Source: Gemmatimonadota bacterium
GTDB taxonomy: Bacteria > Gemmatimonadota > Gemmatimonadetes > Longimicrobiales > Gaopeijiaceae
Direction: 5' to 3'
DNA length: 36,990 nucleotides
Assembly: GCA_007124095.1 (NCBI GenBank)
Contig: SLFU01000241.1
Span: 1-36,990 of the forward strand
Below, piece after piece: positions 30,262-36,118 of this stretch; the stretch's first letter is position 1; the number at the start of each line of letters is the position of its first letter. The notes beneath the pieces are model-generated. The model was not told the DNA's origin and searched no databases. It worked only from the letters and a program-made list of their open reading frames with translations. Both the position numbers and the translations under genes were made by a program.

Positions 30262-31368
30262 ATGTGGAAAGGTCTCCCGTCGGCGCTCCGCTTCATCCGC
30301 GGTTGGAGCTCCCCGTCCTCGAAGGCGGTTGAGTCCGCAGCCCGCTTTCCCGTTCCGGGGGAGGCAGAGCTCGTATCCGGTACAATGCTCGTCCCCGCAG
30401 GATCCCCGAGCGGGCGCGGATGGGTCGTTTTGCACGGCATCACCCGACCGGGTCCGCGACACCCCGAGCTCCGGAGGTTCGTACGGGCCCTCGCAGGAAC
30501 TGGAGGGAGGGTTCTGGTTCCCGAGATCAGCGACTGGACCGAACTCCGGATGGCCCCGGAGCGGGCTCAGAGAATCCTTCGTGGGGCAGTCCGGTGGCTC
30601 CACGACGACCACGCCTCCACACCGGGCGGCATCATGGTCGTCGGCTTCTCCTTCGGGGCGCCTCAGGCCCTCATCGCGGCGGCGCACTCCGAGCTCGTAC
30701 CCCGGATACGCGGCGTCGTGGGCTGGGGCGGATACGCAGACCTTCACCGAACCTTCCGGTTCGGCTTTACCGGTGAGCACGAGTGGGGCGAGAAACGCTA
30801 TCTTGAACGCCCCGACCCCTACGCACGGTGGGTGGTCGGAATCAATGGCATCCCGCTCTCTCCCTCCCTGCGCAGGCACGAAGGAGTGGTCCGAGCCCTT
30901 TACGCTCTGGCCGCGGCCGCCGGGGAGGGCCGCATCCAGACTCGGGACCCCGGATCCGACGCGATGAAGGCGCGTCTCAGAAGAGAACTCCCACAGGGGG
31001 ACCACTCCCTCTTCGATCTCTTCGCCCCTCCCGTGGACCGGGAACCGGACCCCGGGGAAGTGGCCGGAATCGTAGACGAGCTGGTCCCCTGCATCCGCCG
31101 GGAGCTCCCCCTGGTGGACCCGCTCCCCTGGCTCGAGCCCCTGGATGTGCCGGTGAGGCTGCTCCACCCCCGCTCCGACGCGCTCATCCCCTTCACCGAG
31201 ACTCTTCGGCTCGGTGCGGCGCTCGAACCGATCGTCCCCGACCTGAGCGTCGCGACCACGGGGCTGTTGGAGCACTCGGGTCAGCCATCGACCATTCCCC
31301 TGGCACACCGAGTGCAGGAGAATCTACGCTTTCTGGAAGCACTGCGGGGCATCTTCGCGCTAGTTTGA
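30262..31368 (+). CDS. Alpha/beta hydrolase
   Basis: 368 residues without signal peptide. VVLHGITRPG (55-64) is the oxyanion region and GFSFGAPQA (128-136) carries the nucleophile S130. HPRSDALIPF near 325 supplies the acid and a later LEHSGQPS the probable His. A cap region (about 165-290) with many Arg and Asp residues separates the core parts. It looks like a dienelactone hydrolase or lipase-type esterase; the substrate is unknown. The ATG lies about 10 nt after a TATTTA element (30246-30251), so transcription may begin at or near the start codon. Its last 9 bp overlap the convergent receptor gene. Confidence 0.85.
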   Translation: MWKGLPSALRFIRGWSSPSSKAVESAARFPVPGEAELVSGTMLVPAGSPSGRGWVVLHGITRPGPRHPELRRFVRALAGTGGRVLVPEISDWTELRMAPERAQRILRGAVRWLHDDHASTPGGIMVVGFSFGAPQALIAAAHSELVPRIRGVVGWGGYADLHRTFRFGFTGEHEWGEKRYLERPDPYARWVVGINGIPLSPSLRRHEGVVRALYALAAAAGEGRIQTRDPGSDAMKARLRRELPQGDHSLFDLFAPPVDREPDPGEVAGIVDELVPCIRRELPLVDPLPWLEPLDVPVRLLHPRSDALIPFTETLRLGAALEPIVPDLSVATTGLLEHSGQPSTIPLAHRVQENLRFLEALRGIFALV

Positions 31369-33374
31369 ACGGGAAGGGTCGGTCGGCGGACCTGAATAGA
31401 ATCCGAACCTCCCTTCTAGTCCCAGGAGGGGAAGAAGCGGCCGATGAGCGAGAGGATCGGCGCGATCGCCCCTCCACCGGTCGAAGTAGTAGAAGAGGGC
31501 ATCCCGCCGATCGAGCGCGTTGAGCACCTTGACGTAGGGCCGGAGTTGCGTCGTGCGACCCCCAAGGGTGGGCTCGATCGGCCATGCCGCCTCCAGGTCC
31601 AGCCGCAGGAAGTCTTCCTCGGGGGCGAGCTCCAGCGGTGTCGCGGCCCCTCCCGTGTTCATCCGCTGCTCGGTAATAAGAGTGCTGGGTTCGAAGGCCG
31701 CTTCCCCGGTGGATCCTCCGCGCCCGCTCCGGTCCCGATTCCCCCTTCTACACCGGCCGTCCGGAGGCCGGGTGCAGGGAGGGGCTGGTGGTAGAGCCCC
31801 CCCGAGACTAGGAGCGTCGCTCGATCTGTGAGGGAGAAGCGGGCGGCGATGCGCGGACCCATCCGAATCCGAGCCTCGTGTCCGTAGCGATCTCCTCGGA
31901 GCCCGGCTCGGAGGTGCAGGAGGGGGCTCAGCCACCCCTCCCATTCCACGAACAACCCGGCCCCGGTCGTGGCCACCTCTTCCGGATCCGTCGAAACCGA
32001 GCTGATCCCGGGCGATCCGAGGGGGTCGAGCCGGTACACGAAGCGGTACCGTTCCAGCGCACCTCCGAAACGAACGGCCCCTTCGCCGACGGGTAGGGCC
32101 GGCTGGGTCGCGAGGCGATGCCGTTCCGATCCGCCTCGGGCGAGAACCGGTTCCTCCCAGAGCACCGGAAGACCCGACTCGTAGATCGAGCCGGCGGCGG
32201 TGCTTCGGACGACGGCGGGTCCCAACCGACCGTCATGGTGCAGGGAAAGGGCCCGGTTGCCCCAGTGCGCGTCGTGGCCACCGCCCGGATCGTCCGGGAC
32301 CATGTCCAGCCGCACGCCTTCCCGGTTCTTGAAGCCGGTGAGGCGGAGGGCTTGCCCGTCCCCGATCTCCCCCCCGATCCGAACCAGGAAGTCGTCGTAG
32401 CGGTAGGGAAAGCTACCCGTGCCGACGAGCGCCCCCTGCACCCCGTGGAGGTGGCGCCCCCCGGCGAGTACCCCTCCCCGCGAGCCGACCGGAAGCTCGG
32501 CGGAACCGCTCAGCGTGAGTCCATCCGCTGCGAGGCTCATCCGGAGCCGGTCCGTTCGGGCCGGGCGGGTCTCCAGGTCCAGGAGGTAGGAAAGGCCTCC
32601 GTCGTAGGGATAGGGGGCGCCACCGAGGTAGAGCTTTGCGTCGCCCAGGAACTCGGAGTAGAACGGCTCCACGAGGCCGGCGGCGTGGAAGGGCGTGTGG
32701 ATCGAAGCCCCGTCCACGAGGACCATGCGCGCATCTACGGCAGAACCTCTCATGAAGAGCACCTGCTTCGGATCTCCCGTCTGCTCGCCGGGGAGTGCCG
32801 ACGCCAACCCGGACTCCGCCATCCCGGACGAAGCCTCGAGCGCGCGGAGTCCCATCCCGGGTGCTCGACCTTCGGAGAGGGCCGTGGGCTCCACCGGCCG
32901 GTTCAATCCGACGGGGAGTCGAGGGCTCACCTCGACCCCGGCGAGGACGATGATCCGTCGATCCACCTCCAGGTCCACATCGATGCGGCCACGTGGAGGA
33001 AGTTGGAGATCCATCTCGAAAGGCTGAGCTGCCACGTGGAGCACGGAGAGGGAGGCCGGGCCCGCTCCGAGACCCTCCAGCCGGTAGCGCCCCTCCCCGT
33101 CGGCGAGGGACCGGTGGAGCCTCCCATCCTGCCGGACCTCGACCACCGCGCCAGGGAGGACGCCATCCGATCGATACTCCTTTAAACGCACCACACCGGA
33201 GAGGACGGCGAGAGTGTCCGCTGCGATCTTCCGGGCGGCTCTCGAGCCCGGCTCCACCGAGGAGTGGGCGGTCGCCATCGAAGCGGCGGCCGCCTCCCCC
33301 ACTGGTCCGGGAGGCTCGGGGGCCCAGGATCCGCTAGTCCAGAGGAGTGCGAGCAGGGGAATCCAGCTACTCAT
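31360..33374 (-). pseudogene. TonB-dependent receptor with frameshift and probable internal deletion
   Basis: The first frame runs from ATG 33374 (GGAT upstream) to a TGA at 31659-31661. It has a short signal segment, a CarboxypepD-reg-like N-domain (VVRLKEYRSDGVLPGAVVEV), the plug (FMRGSAVDARMVLVDGASIH) and barrel strands up to GGLYHQPLPAP. It then loses the expected pattern and stops. The typical receptor C-terminus (EDFLRLDLEAAWPIEPT, then RPYVKVLNALDRRDALFYYF, ending GLEGRFGF) sits in another frame, about 31360-31735. A barrel normally needs more residues in between, so a deletion plus a shift is likely near 31690-31740. Whole product would be ~670 residues. Sequencing error must be excluded. 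It follows the anti-sigma gene by 9 bp, so it is probably co-expressed with it. Confidence 0.8.
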
Positions 33375-33383
33375 CAATCGATC

Positions 33384-34211
33384 CTACCCGTTCGGAGCGC
33401 CAGACGTACCAGTGGGGGGGGCCTCGAAGCGCAGCGCGTCGGCGGTCGAGGACATCGGGGGCGGACCGGGAATGGCAAACTCACCTTCGATCACTTCCAC
33501 GAGCAGGACACCGTTCACGCGGACCTCCCCTCGAAGGGAGGCTCTCGGAACCTCGATCCGGATCGGCGCCGAACCGGCCCCAACGCCGGCCATCGCCACG
33601 TGGACCCGTCCCGAACCGGTCTCGAAGTGGGCGTCCTCCGAGGCGAAGACTGAAGCTCGCTCCCCATCCACAAGAGTGACCTCAAGCTGCGTGCCTGGAA
33701 CCACGTCGGTGAAGGCCACACTCAGGGCTCCATCCTGAAGGGCGAGGCCCACGCCCACCTCCGCTCCCACTCCTGAGGGTTCGGCCACCCCTTCAGGAAT
33801 GGATTCGGAGAGCGCGATCGGTGCGCCGGCCGTCTCCCGTGCTTCCCACCAGCTCCGCAGAGGCGATCCCGGCATCGCGGCGGCGACCCCGGCACCGAAG
33901 AGGAGGACGAAGGAGGCGGCGACCGCCGTCCTCCGAAGGAAGCCCGTCCCTGTGGGCTCCCGCCCCTGACCCCGCCGCCGATCGGCTGCCGTCTTGTGAA
34001 CCTTCAAACGCGCTGCCGTGAGATCAGGCTGGTCGGTTTCCAGTTTCCCGAAGGCCGCCCGCGCTTCCCCGGCGAATCGCTCCAATTCCTCCAACCTCCG
34101 GCGGCACATGGCGCAACCCTCCAGGTGGCGGGTGATTACGGCATTGGACCCCTGCGGCACCTCACCGTCCAGGTAGGCCTGGAGAACGCCTTCCTCAGGA
34201 TGCTCCTTCAT
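33384..34211 (-). CDS. ZAS-type anti-sigma factor with periplasmic domain
   Basis: 275 residues. The cytoplasmic N-terminus has the zinc anti-sigma motif H29-x3-C33-x2-C36 (HLEGCAMCRR), which binds ECF sigma factors. A transmembrane helix lies at about 94-113, followed by a periplasmic ~160-residue domain rich in beta strands (VEVTLVDGERASVF, RVHVAMAGVGAGSAPIRIEV) that may sense a signal. ATG 34211 overlaps the sigma gene end by 17 bp, the usual arrangement. The neighbouring TonB receptor suggests surface signalling, but no receptor signalling domain is evident. Confidence 0.9.
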   Translation of the reverse strand: MKEHPEEGVLQAYLDGEVPQGSNAVITRHLEGCAMCRRRLEELERFAGEARAAFGKLETDQPDLTAARLKVHKTAADRRRGQGREPTGTGFLRRTAVAASFVLLFGAGVAAAMPGSPLRSWWEARETAGAPIALSESIPEGVAEPSGVGAEVGVGLALQDGALSVAFTDVVPGTQLEVTLVDGERASVFASEDAHFETGSGRVHVAMAGVGAGSAPIRIEVPRASLRGEVRVNGVLLVEVIEGEFAIPGPPPMSSTADALRFEAPPTGTSGAPNG

Positions 34212-34716
34212 GAATCCTCCGGTTCACCAATGCTCCCTCCTCCTGGCTCAGTACCTGCGCGAATCGACGCCGCGCCCTGGCGAGTAAAGTGCCCACCGAG
34301 CTGGATTGAGCGCCGATCGCCTCGGCCATTTCGCGATACGAGAAACCCTCCTCTCGCATGAGCAGCAACCTCCGCTCCCGCTCGTCCAACGAGTCCAGCG
34401 CTCTCCTCGCCCGACCTTCCATTTCCCGGCGCTCGACGACCTCATCGAGGCTCGGGCCGGCCTCGAGGGTCACCGGGTTCTCTTCGAGGAGGCGGGATCG
34501 ATTCTCCCGAATCCTCGCCTGATCCCGGATCAGATGGGTGGCCACCTTGAAGAGCCACGCACGCAGGCGAGGAGGGTCCCCCTCCACCTTCCGGTCGAGA
34601 AGACGCACGAAGGCTTCCTGGGCCACATCCTCCCCCATGTCCGAATCCGCGCTCAGCCGGGTGCAGTACCGGTGGAGCCGGGGGTAGAGGTCGTCGAAGA
34701 GCTCGTCGAAAGTCAT
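34195..34716 (-). CDS. ECF RNA polymerase sigma factor
   Basis: 173 residues. Region 2 is FDDLYPRLHRYCTRLSADSD, then DVAQEAFVRLL and the RLRAWLFKVATHLIRDQ region. Region 4 is ALDSLDERERRLLLMREEGF and SYREMAEAIGAQSSSVGTLL, followed by ARARRRFAQVL. No C-terminal extension. ATG 34716 is preferred; longer frames have poor support. It is followed by its anti-sigma partner and lies 64 bp after the arginine deiminase gene. ECF group cannot be assigned from sequence here. No clear autoregulatory promoter was recognised in the short gap. Confidence 0.93.
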   Translation of the reverse strand: MTFDELFDDLYPRLHRYCTRLSADSDMGEDVAQEAFVRLLDRKVEGDPPRLRAWLFKVATHLIRDQARIRENRSRLLEENPVTLEAGPSLDEVVERREMEGRARRALDSLDERERRLLLMREEGFSYREMAEAIGAQSSSVGTLLARARRRFAQVLSQEEGALVNRRIHEGAS

Positions 34717-34780
34717 TTCTCGTGAAACGAGCGAGGGCGAGGAATCGTGACAATGCGGCGCGTCGTGAGCCCGACTTCCC

Positions 34781-36118
34781 TCAGATCGGGTCGCGCTCGA
34801 GGGGGTGGGTGAGGCAGTGCGGTCCTCCACGAGCCCGGGAGAGCTCGTTGGAGGCAACGAGGATGCAACGCCTCCTCGGACCCTCTCCCTCGGGTCCCTC
34901 AGGCTCCGCAAGGAGCTCCTCGGCCCCGATCACCCGGTAGCCCCGGCGATCCATCTCCTCCGCGGTCCTCACATTCCGATCGTAGAGAATCACGACGCCC
35001 GGCGCCACAGCCAGGGCGTTCGCGCCATCGGTCCACTGTTCGCGCTGCTGGTGCATCGGATCGGACCCACCGCAGGGGATCGGATCGAAGGAAAAGCCCA
35101 GGTGCGCCAAGGCACTCGGGAGATCTCCCCTCCACTCGGGCGCCGGCTCGCTCGAGTGCAGGTCGTACTCCCACACCTCCGCCGTGTCCGGATGCCCGGG
35201 CAGGATCACCGGGGGAAAAACGAGACAAGCGTCGGGGGATACGGGGGTGAAGAGAGTGTCCAGGTGCATGTACGCACGTTTCCGGGGAAGCTCCACCCGG
35301 AGGAGCCGGCGCGGGGCTCCATCCCTCCGAGCGAGGGAACGGACGAGCGCCTCGATTCCCCCTGCCGTCGTCCGTTCCGAGCCGCCGACCACGATCACCT
35401 CCTCGGAAAGGACCAAGACGTCGCCGCCCTCAAGCGTCACCGGATCCCGCTCCTCCCTCCCTCCCGAGGGAGTCCCCGGCAAAGCTCCGGCCGAGGCTCC
35501 GACGAGCGTCTCCGAACCGATCTCGGGGAATACCGGGGTTCCCTCGAAGGAAGGGTGGAACCGGAAGATCGCCTCGGAGAGCAGCGCCTCCCGGTGCCGG
35601 GCCGAAGTGGCCATCGCCGAAAAGAGAACCCCCCGACCGAGCACGACCTGGGTGTCGCGCTGGAAGCACCAGTTCGGGAGGGGGCGGACCCCGAAGAGCG
35701 TCTCCCGGACCCGGGCGGGGTCGACGGGGTGCCTGCGAATCCCTCCGACCAGCGCCTGGGCCATCTCCGCCGGATCCATCGCGCCGATCCTCTCCCGAAA
35801 CTCCGGAAGGAGGTGCGGCTGAACACGCGTCTCCACCCAGCCCCGCCCCTCCGGGGTGGCCAACGTCTCCGAAAGGAGATCGAGCGCCTCGATCGCTTCG
35901 ACGCCGAGCCGCCGCAGGACCTTTCGGAAGAGCCGGTGTTCCGAGCGGGCCGTCTCTCCATGCAGAATGTCGTCGAAGAGGAGCTCCTGCATCATGCTCG
36001 GAACCATCAGGTCGATCTCTCGACCCGGCTCGTGGACGAGCGCCCTCCGCAGACGACCGACCTCGGAGGTCACCCTGACCGGAAACGCCGCCTTCCCCAC
36101 CCCCGCTCCGTCCCTCAC
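34781..36118 (-). CDS. arcA: Arginine deiminase
   Basis: 445 residues, slightly longer than the usual ~405-415. Hydrolyses arginine to citrulline and ammonia. Motifs: FQRD (152-155, corresponding to FTRDP in other members), EGGD (230-233), HLDT (285-288) and a catalytic Cys at C435 in ARGGPHCLTHPLER. A Gly-rich segment with WTDGANALAVAPG is also as expected. GTG 36118 has GGGAGG a few bases upstream. No ornithine carbamoyltransferase or carbamate kinase gene is adjacent, so ATP production by the full deiminase pathway cannot be inferred. Divergent from the M28 peptidase gene. Confidence 0.92.
   Translation of the reverse strand: MRDGAGVGKAAFPVRVTSEVGRLRRALVHEPGREIDLMVPSMMQELLFDDILHGETARSEHRLFRKVLRRLGVEAIEALDLLSETLATPEGRGWVETRVQPHLLPEFRERIGAMDPAEMAQALVGGIRRHPVDPARVRETLFGVRPLPNWCFQRDTQVVLGRGVLFSAMATSARHREALLSEAIFRFHPSFEGTPVFPEIGSETLVGASAGALPGTPSGGREERDPVTLEGGDVLVLSEEVIVVGGSERTTAGGIEALVRSLARRDGAPRRLLRVELPRKRAYMHLDTLFTPVSPDACLVFPPVILPGHPDTAEVWEYDLHSSEPAPEWRGDLPSALAHLGFSFDPIPCGGSDPMHQQREQWTDGANALAVAPGVVILYDRNVRTAEEMDRRGYRVIGAEELLAEPEGPEGEGPRRRCILVASNELSRARGGPHCLTHPLERDPI

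Follow-up and report, generated by a model that had tools for sequence, protein, structure and literature searches.

A probable young pseudogene of a TonB-receptor-like outer-membrane protein beside an intact pair of ECF sigma and anti-sigma factor genes in a Gemmatimonadota bacterium

The window analysed here, a stretch of 36,990 nucleotides, is the whole of one contig (G000:C37) of a Gemmatimonadota draft genome of 2.83 Mb, which consists of 242 contigs and is 95.8% complete. On its minus strand we found an operon-like, tightly packed row in which a gene for an ECF sigma factor is followed by a gene for an anti-sigma factor and, in third place, by a gene for a TonB-receptor-like protein. The sigma and anti-sigma genes overlap by 17 bases (stop codon included), and the ATG of the receptor gene is at 33374, with the anti-sigma gene ending at 33384. 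The only genome of the same genus in our search for relatives (G001, a sister species, hereafter the sister) has an identical gene order and an intact receptor of 764 residues. The features of the locus are the following.

34195-34716, minus strand: ECF sigma factor gene, stop included; the start is set by the match to the sister, and the longest frame reaches 34911
33384-34211, minus strand: zf-HC2 anti-sigma factor gene, intact; PF13490 over its cut-off, 56% identity to the sister over residues 1-275
31659-33374, minus strand: 5' fragment of the receptor gene, with a carboxypeptidase-regulatory-like domain, a plug-like region and the first part of the barrel; 67% identity to the sister
31675-31761, minus strand: junction zone of the receptor gene, 87 bases against 472 in the sister; position of the BLASTN gap, with the breakpoints inside it
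31405-31689, minus strand: C-terminal fragment of the receptor gene in another frame; 78% identity to residues 670-764 of the sister
31360-31404, minus strand: run-on of the receptor frame, 14 codons and a stop past the normal C-terminus, defined by the stops of the relatives and a codon comparison with the sister

Genes on both sides of this row also have counterparts in the sister. Tail to tail with the receptor gene lies a conserved gene of 368 residues on the plus strand (30262-31368; 74% identity to the sister), for which no NCBIfam match was found and whose final nine bases are overlapped by the receptor run-on. The minus-strand gene at 34781-36118 encodes an arginine deiminase-like protein with 67% identity to that of the sister, which scores far under the NCBIfam arginine deiminase cut-offs (314 versus 414 bits and 304 versus 489 bits). 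A scan of positions 31200-35200 found no sigma-70-like promoter site and a single terminator-like site, which is inside a gene, where 1.7 were expected.

The original prediction of an intact sigma/anti-sigma pair is borne out by the domains of both proteins and by full-length matches to the sister. The sigma factor is 77% identical to the sister protein over all 173 residues and has all the features of an ECF sigma factor that we looked for: Sigma70_r2 (PF04542) and Sigma70_r4_2 (PF08281) are over their cut-offs and are the sole Pfam matches at 0.001, and TIGR02937 scores 81.9 bits against a cut-off of 42.9. The anti-sigma factor carries the expected N-terminal putative zinc finger at residues 10-37 (PF13490, 26.3 bits against 22.2), again the only Pfam match at 0.001, and the NCBIfam models for the anti-sigma factors ChrR and RsrA match it only far under their cut-offs. 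These two are among seven genes other than the receptor gene that each match the sister contig in one frame; the seven were picked by hand, with presumed antisense shadows left out, and two of them are cut by a contig end (26646-27884 and the gene at the right end of the window).

The receptor gene is broken. Its 5' frame encodes 571 residues from the ATG to a stop codon at 31661-31659, and residues 49-549 match the sister receptor with an E-value of 3e-215. A second open frame extends from a point upstream of 31735 as far as the stop at 31360, and its recognisable receptor part matches the sister with an E-value of 4e-47. The two frames overlap over 31944-31659. These matches confirm the initial observation that the receptor frame ends at 31659 while a clear receptor C-terminus lies in another frame, and chance is excluded as the source of the two receptor frames.

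Comparison with the sister supports the view that an internal deletion accompanies the shift of frame. The DNA of the two genomes is collinear in BLASTN apart from one large gap within the gene, and the net loss in the window is 385 bases (128 codons and one base). A loss of this size explains the shortening as well as the shift and excludes a mere single-base error as the cause. The breakpoints are placed within the junction zone and no finer. The same shortening is seen against more distant genomes: about 91 codons separate the conserved YHQ and RRDA motifs in the window, and in 22 of 30 relatives, those where the pattern found both motifs, the distance is 209-230 codons. A query made of the missing sister segment and a few flanking residues had no match at an E-value of 1 in the whole draft genome of the window, and in a control it matched its target in seven of seven relatives; relocation of the segment to another contig is thus rejected. 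Across 15 relatives 62 positions of the receptor are invariant, and 12 of these belong to the missing part, which probably corresponds to about six predicted barrel strands, a number read from the alignment of the relatives. A structure model of one relative (L031), aligned with both window fragments, had a mean pLDDT of 33 and was not used for counting strands, and all six matches in a profile search for a template of solved structure were to the N-terminal part.

Two routes by which the segment might have been lost were examined and rejected. A repeat spanning the junction would have suggested repeat-mediated deletion, but there is no direct repeat of more than 16 bases in positions 31300-32100 of the window, and the sister segment has only a 16-base pair at 81%, which is not located at both breakpoints. 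Copying from a paralogue was considered as well; the best off-site match of the junction DNA in its own genome is 28 bases at 89%, and the receptor is without a close paralogue in this genome (second match at an E-value of 8e-4).

Both fragments still bear the marks of constraint. Of the invariant positions, 50 are still covered by the window, and 48 of them are unchanged. Pairwise pN/pS values against the sister, which are rough at a dS near 1.1, are 0.37 (0.31-0.43) for the 5' part and 0.18 (0.10-0.27) for the 3' part of the receptor gene, 0.24 for the sigma gene and 0.45 for the anti-sigma gene. Since an old pseudogene would have lost this constraint, the break must be recent, or else an artefact.

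The end of the gene carries a second lesion. In each of the 30 relatives fetched the stop codon comes directly after the C-terminal motif; the window has a sense codon at this position and its frame runs on for 14 codons. The residue before the stop in these relatives is F in 27, and Y, H and T in one each, and thus aromatic (F or Y) in 28; in the window no aromatic residue directly precedes the stop. A tryptophan that occupies the third-last position in 24 of the 30 is also changed. The loss of both the stop and the C-terminal tryptophan favours real decay over an assembly error.

The comparison with close relatives called for at the outset found the receptor gene whole in the sister and in one open frame in 30 of 30 relatives (L002-L031). 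Across the order we searched 154 genomes with a receptor threshold of E 1e-45, scoring at most six candidates per genome, and found the receptor in 79, the genome of the window included; given this limit on candidates, the lack of a match in the remaining 75 genomes does not prove that they are without the gene. In the other 78 the gene is in one frame without stops in 72, is cut by a contig end in five (G106, G108, G128, G133 and G149) and is frame-shifted near its end in one. The latter (G061:C117:4156-6318, corresponding to L039:1357-3519) has its shift near the C-terminus and also a short unreadable stretch near the N-terminus. A scan of a genome collection for other strains, from which the genome of the window may have been left out, gave one relative at 42% identity.

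The sigma and receptor genes usually travel together. Every locus from L002 to L031 has a sigma match next to the receptor, and all except L027 have an anti-sigma match there too. Across the order, 71 of the 79 genomes with the receptor have a close sigma match no more than 2.5 kb away from it; in the other eight no sigma match was found on the contig of the receptor at the threshold used. The receptor is therefore a plausible, if unproven, target of the sigma factor, as the tight spacing and conserved order of the genes also suggest. In eight genomes (G047, G051, G053, G057, G058, G102, G135 and G148) the thresholds applied gave a close sigma match but no receptor match, and these may be orphan regulators, other sigma factors or cases of a missed receptor.

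Intact members of this receptor family resemble TonB-dependent receptors with an N-terminal carboxypeptidase-regulatory-like domain. The domain is present in the four intact relatives scanned (L002, L007, L009 and L031), over its cut-off in all but L002, which is just below, and the C-terminal aromatic residue of most relatives also fits. The 5' fragment in the window has a PF13620 match below cut-off. However, plug and barrel models match below their cut-offs or not at all even in three of these four relatives: both PF07715 and PF00593 exceed their cut-offs in L009 only; PF07715 falls short in L007 and L031 and is absent from L002, and PF00593 falls short in L002 and L031 and is absent from L007. 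In the window we found no plug match at 0.001 and no PF00593 match, and the copy differs from such receptors in that part of the barrel and an in-frame C-terminus are missing, with no complete barrel in one frame.

In FecI-FecR-FecA cell-surface signalling, a sigma factor, an anti-sigma factor and a TonB-type receptor are encoded side by side, as they are at this locus. However, the anti-sigma factor here is a zf-HC2 protein without a FecR match (Pfam, 0.001), and scans of the window fragment and of the four relatives gave no STN domain. By these features, the locus is not a FecIRA system. A literature search at the level of listings found no such sigma, anti-sigma and receptor module for this group.

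We consider that this gene for a TonB-receptor-like outer-membrane protein is probably a young pseudogene. A recent deletion of net 385 bases would have put the gene out of frame and taken away about six predicted strands of the barrel, and translation would end after 571 residues, short of both the final section of the barrel and the C-terminal signal. Outer-membrane proteins need this signal for insertion, and with both elements gone no working receptor is to be expected. We infer both that receptor function is lost and that the assembly is correct. An assembly artefact, in which the genome has an intact receptor and the draft has dropped part of it, for example by joining strain variants, seems unlikely but is the likeliest of the alternatives. 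The draft is fragmented, an artefact would leave the same strong constraint on both fragments, and the shifted copy in the G061 draft indicates that such breaks occur elsewhere, whatever their cause. On the other hand, no direct repeat of more than 16 bases was found around the junction or within the sister segment, which stands in for the lost sequence; the segment was found on no other contig; the seven comparable neighbouring genes are each in one frame; and the stop carries a second lesion.

Explanations that leave the gene with a function fare worse. A programmed frame shift, proposed originally as an alternative, could join the frames into a shortened working receptor within the several hundred bases over which they overlap. 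However, we regard this as very improbable, because none of the 30 relatives needs a shift and a protein made by joining the frames would be short of about 128 barrel residues, with 12 of the 62 invariant positions in the lost part, in addition to extending 14 residues past the normal end. It is scarcely credible that the truncated protein has kept or gained a use of its own, such as signalling from its N-terminal domain to the anti-sigma factor. The good preservation of the N-terminal part and the intact regulator genes would agree with such a role, but the recency of the break explains the preservation, and a signalling domain of the STN type is found neither in the fragment nor in the relatives scanned.

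The young pseudogene that we favour would be an ordinary event. Loss of receptor genes is nothing unusual in bacteria, and pseudogenes formed by internal deletion, in which one lineage loses the frame and its relatives keep the gene, are well known; the window shows no evident difference from these unless the assembly is in error. After the loss, the intact sigma and anti-sigma factors may go on regulating other genes. We think it improbable that the pair has become an orphan regulator freed from its receptor here, or that repeated deletion, under pressure from phages or colicin-like agents, is how the population turns the receptor off. Taken alone, the broken receptor matters little. Unless the assembly is at fault locally, it is a clear example of a receptor lost recently, and naive gene calling would report it as a short receptor. 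Across the order, the close sigma match beside the receptor, as seen in 71 of 79 genomes, gives a testable module.
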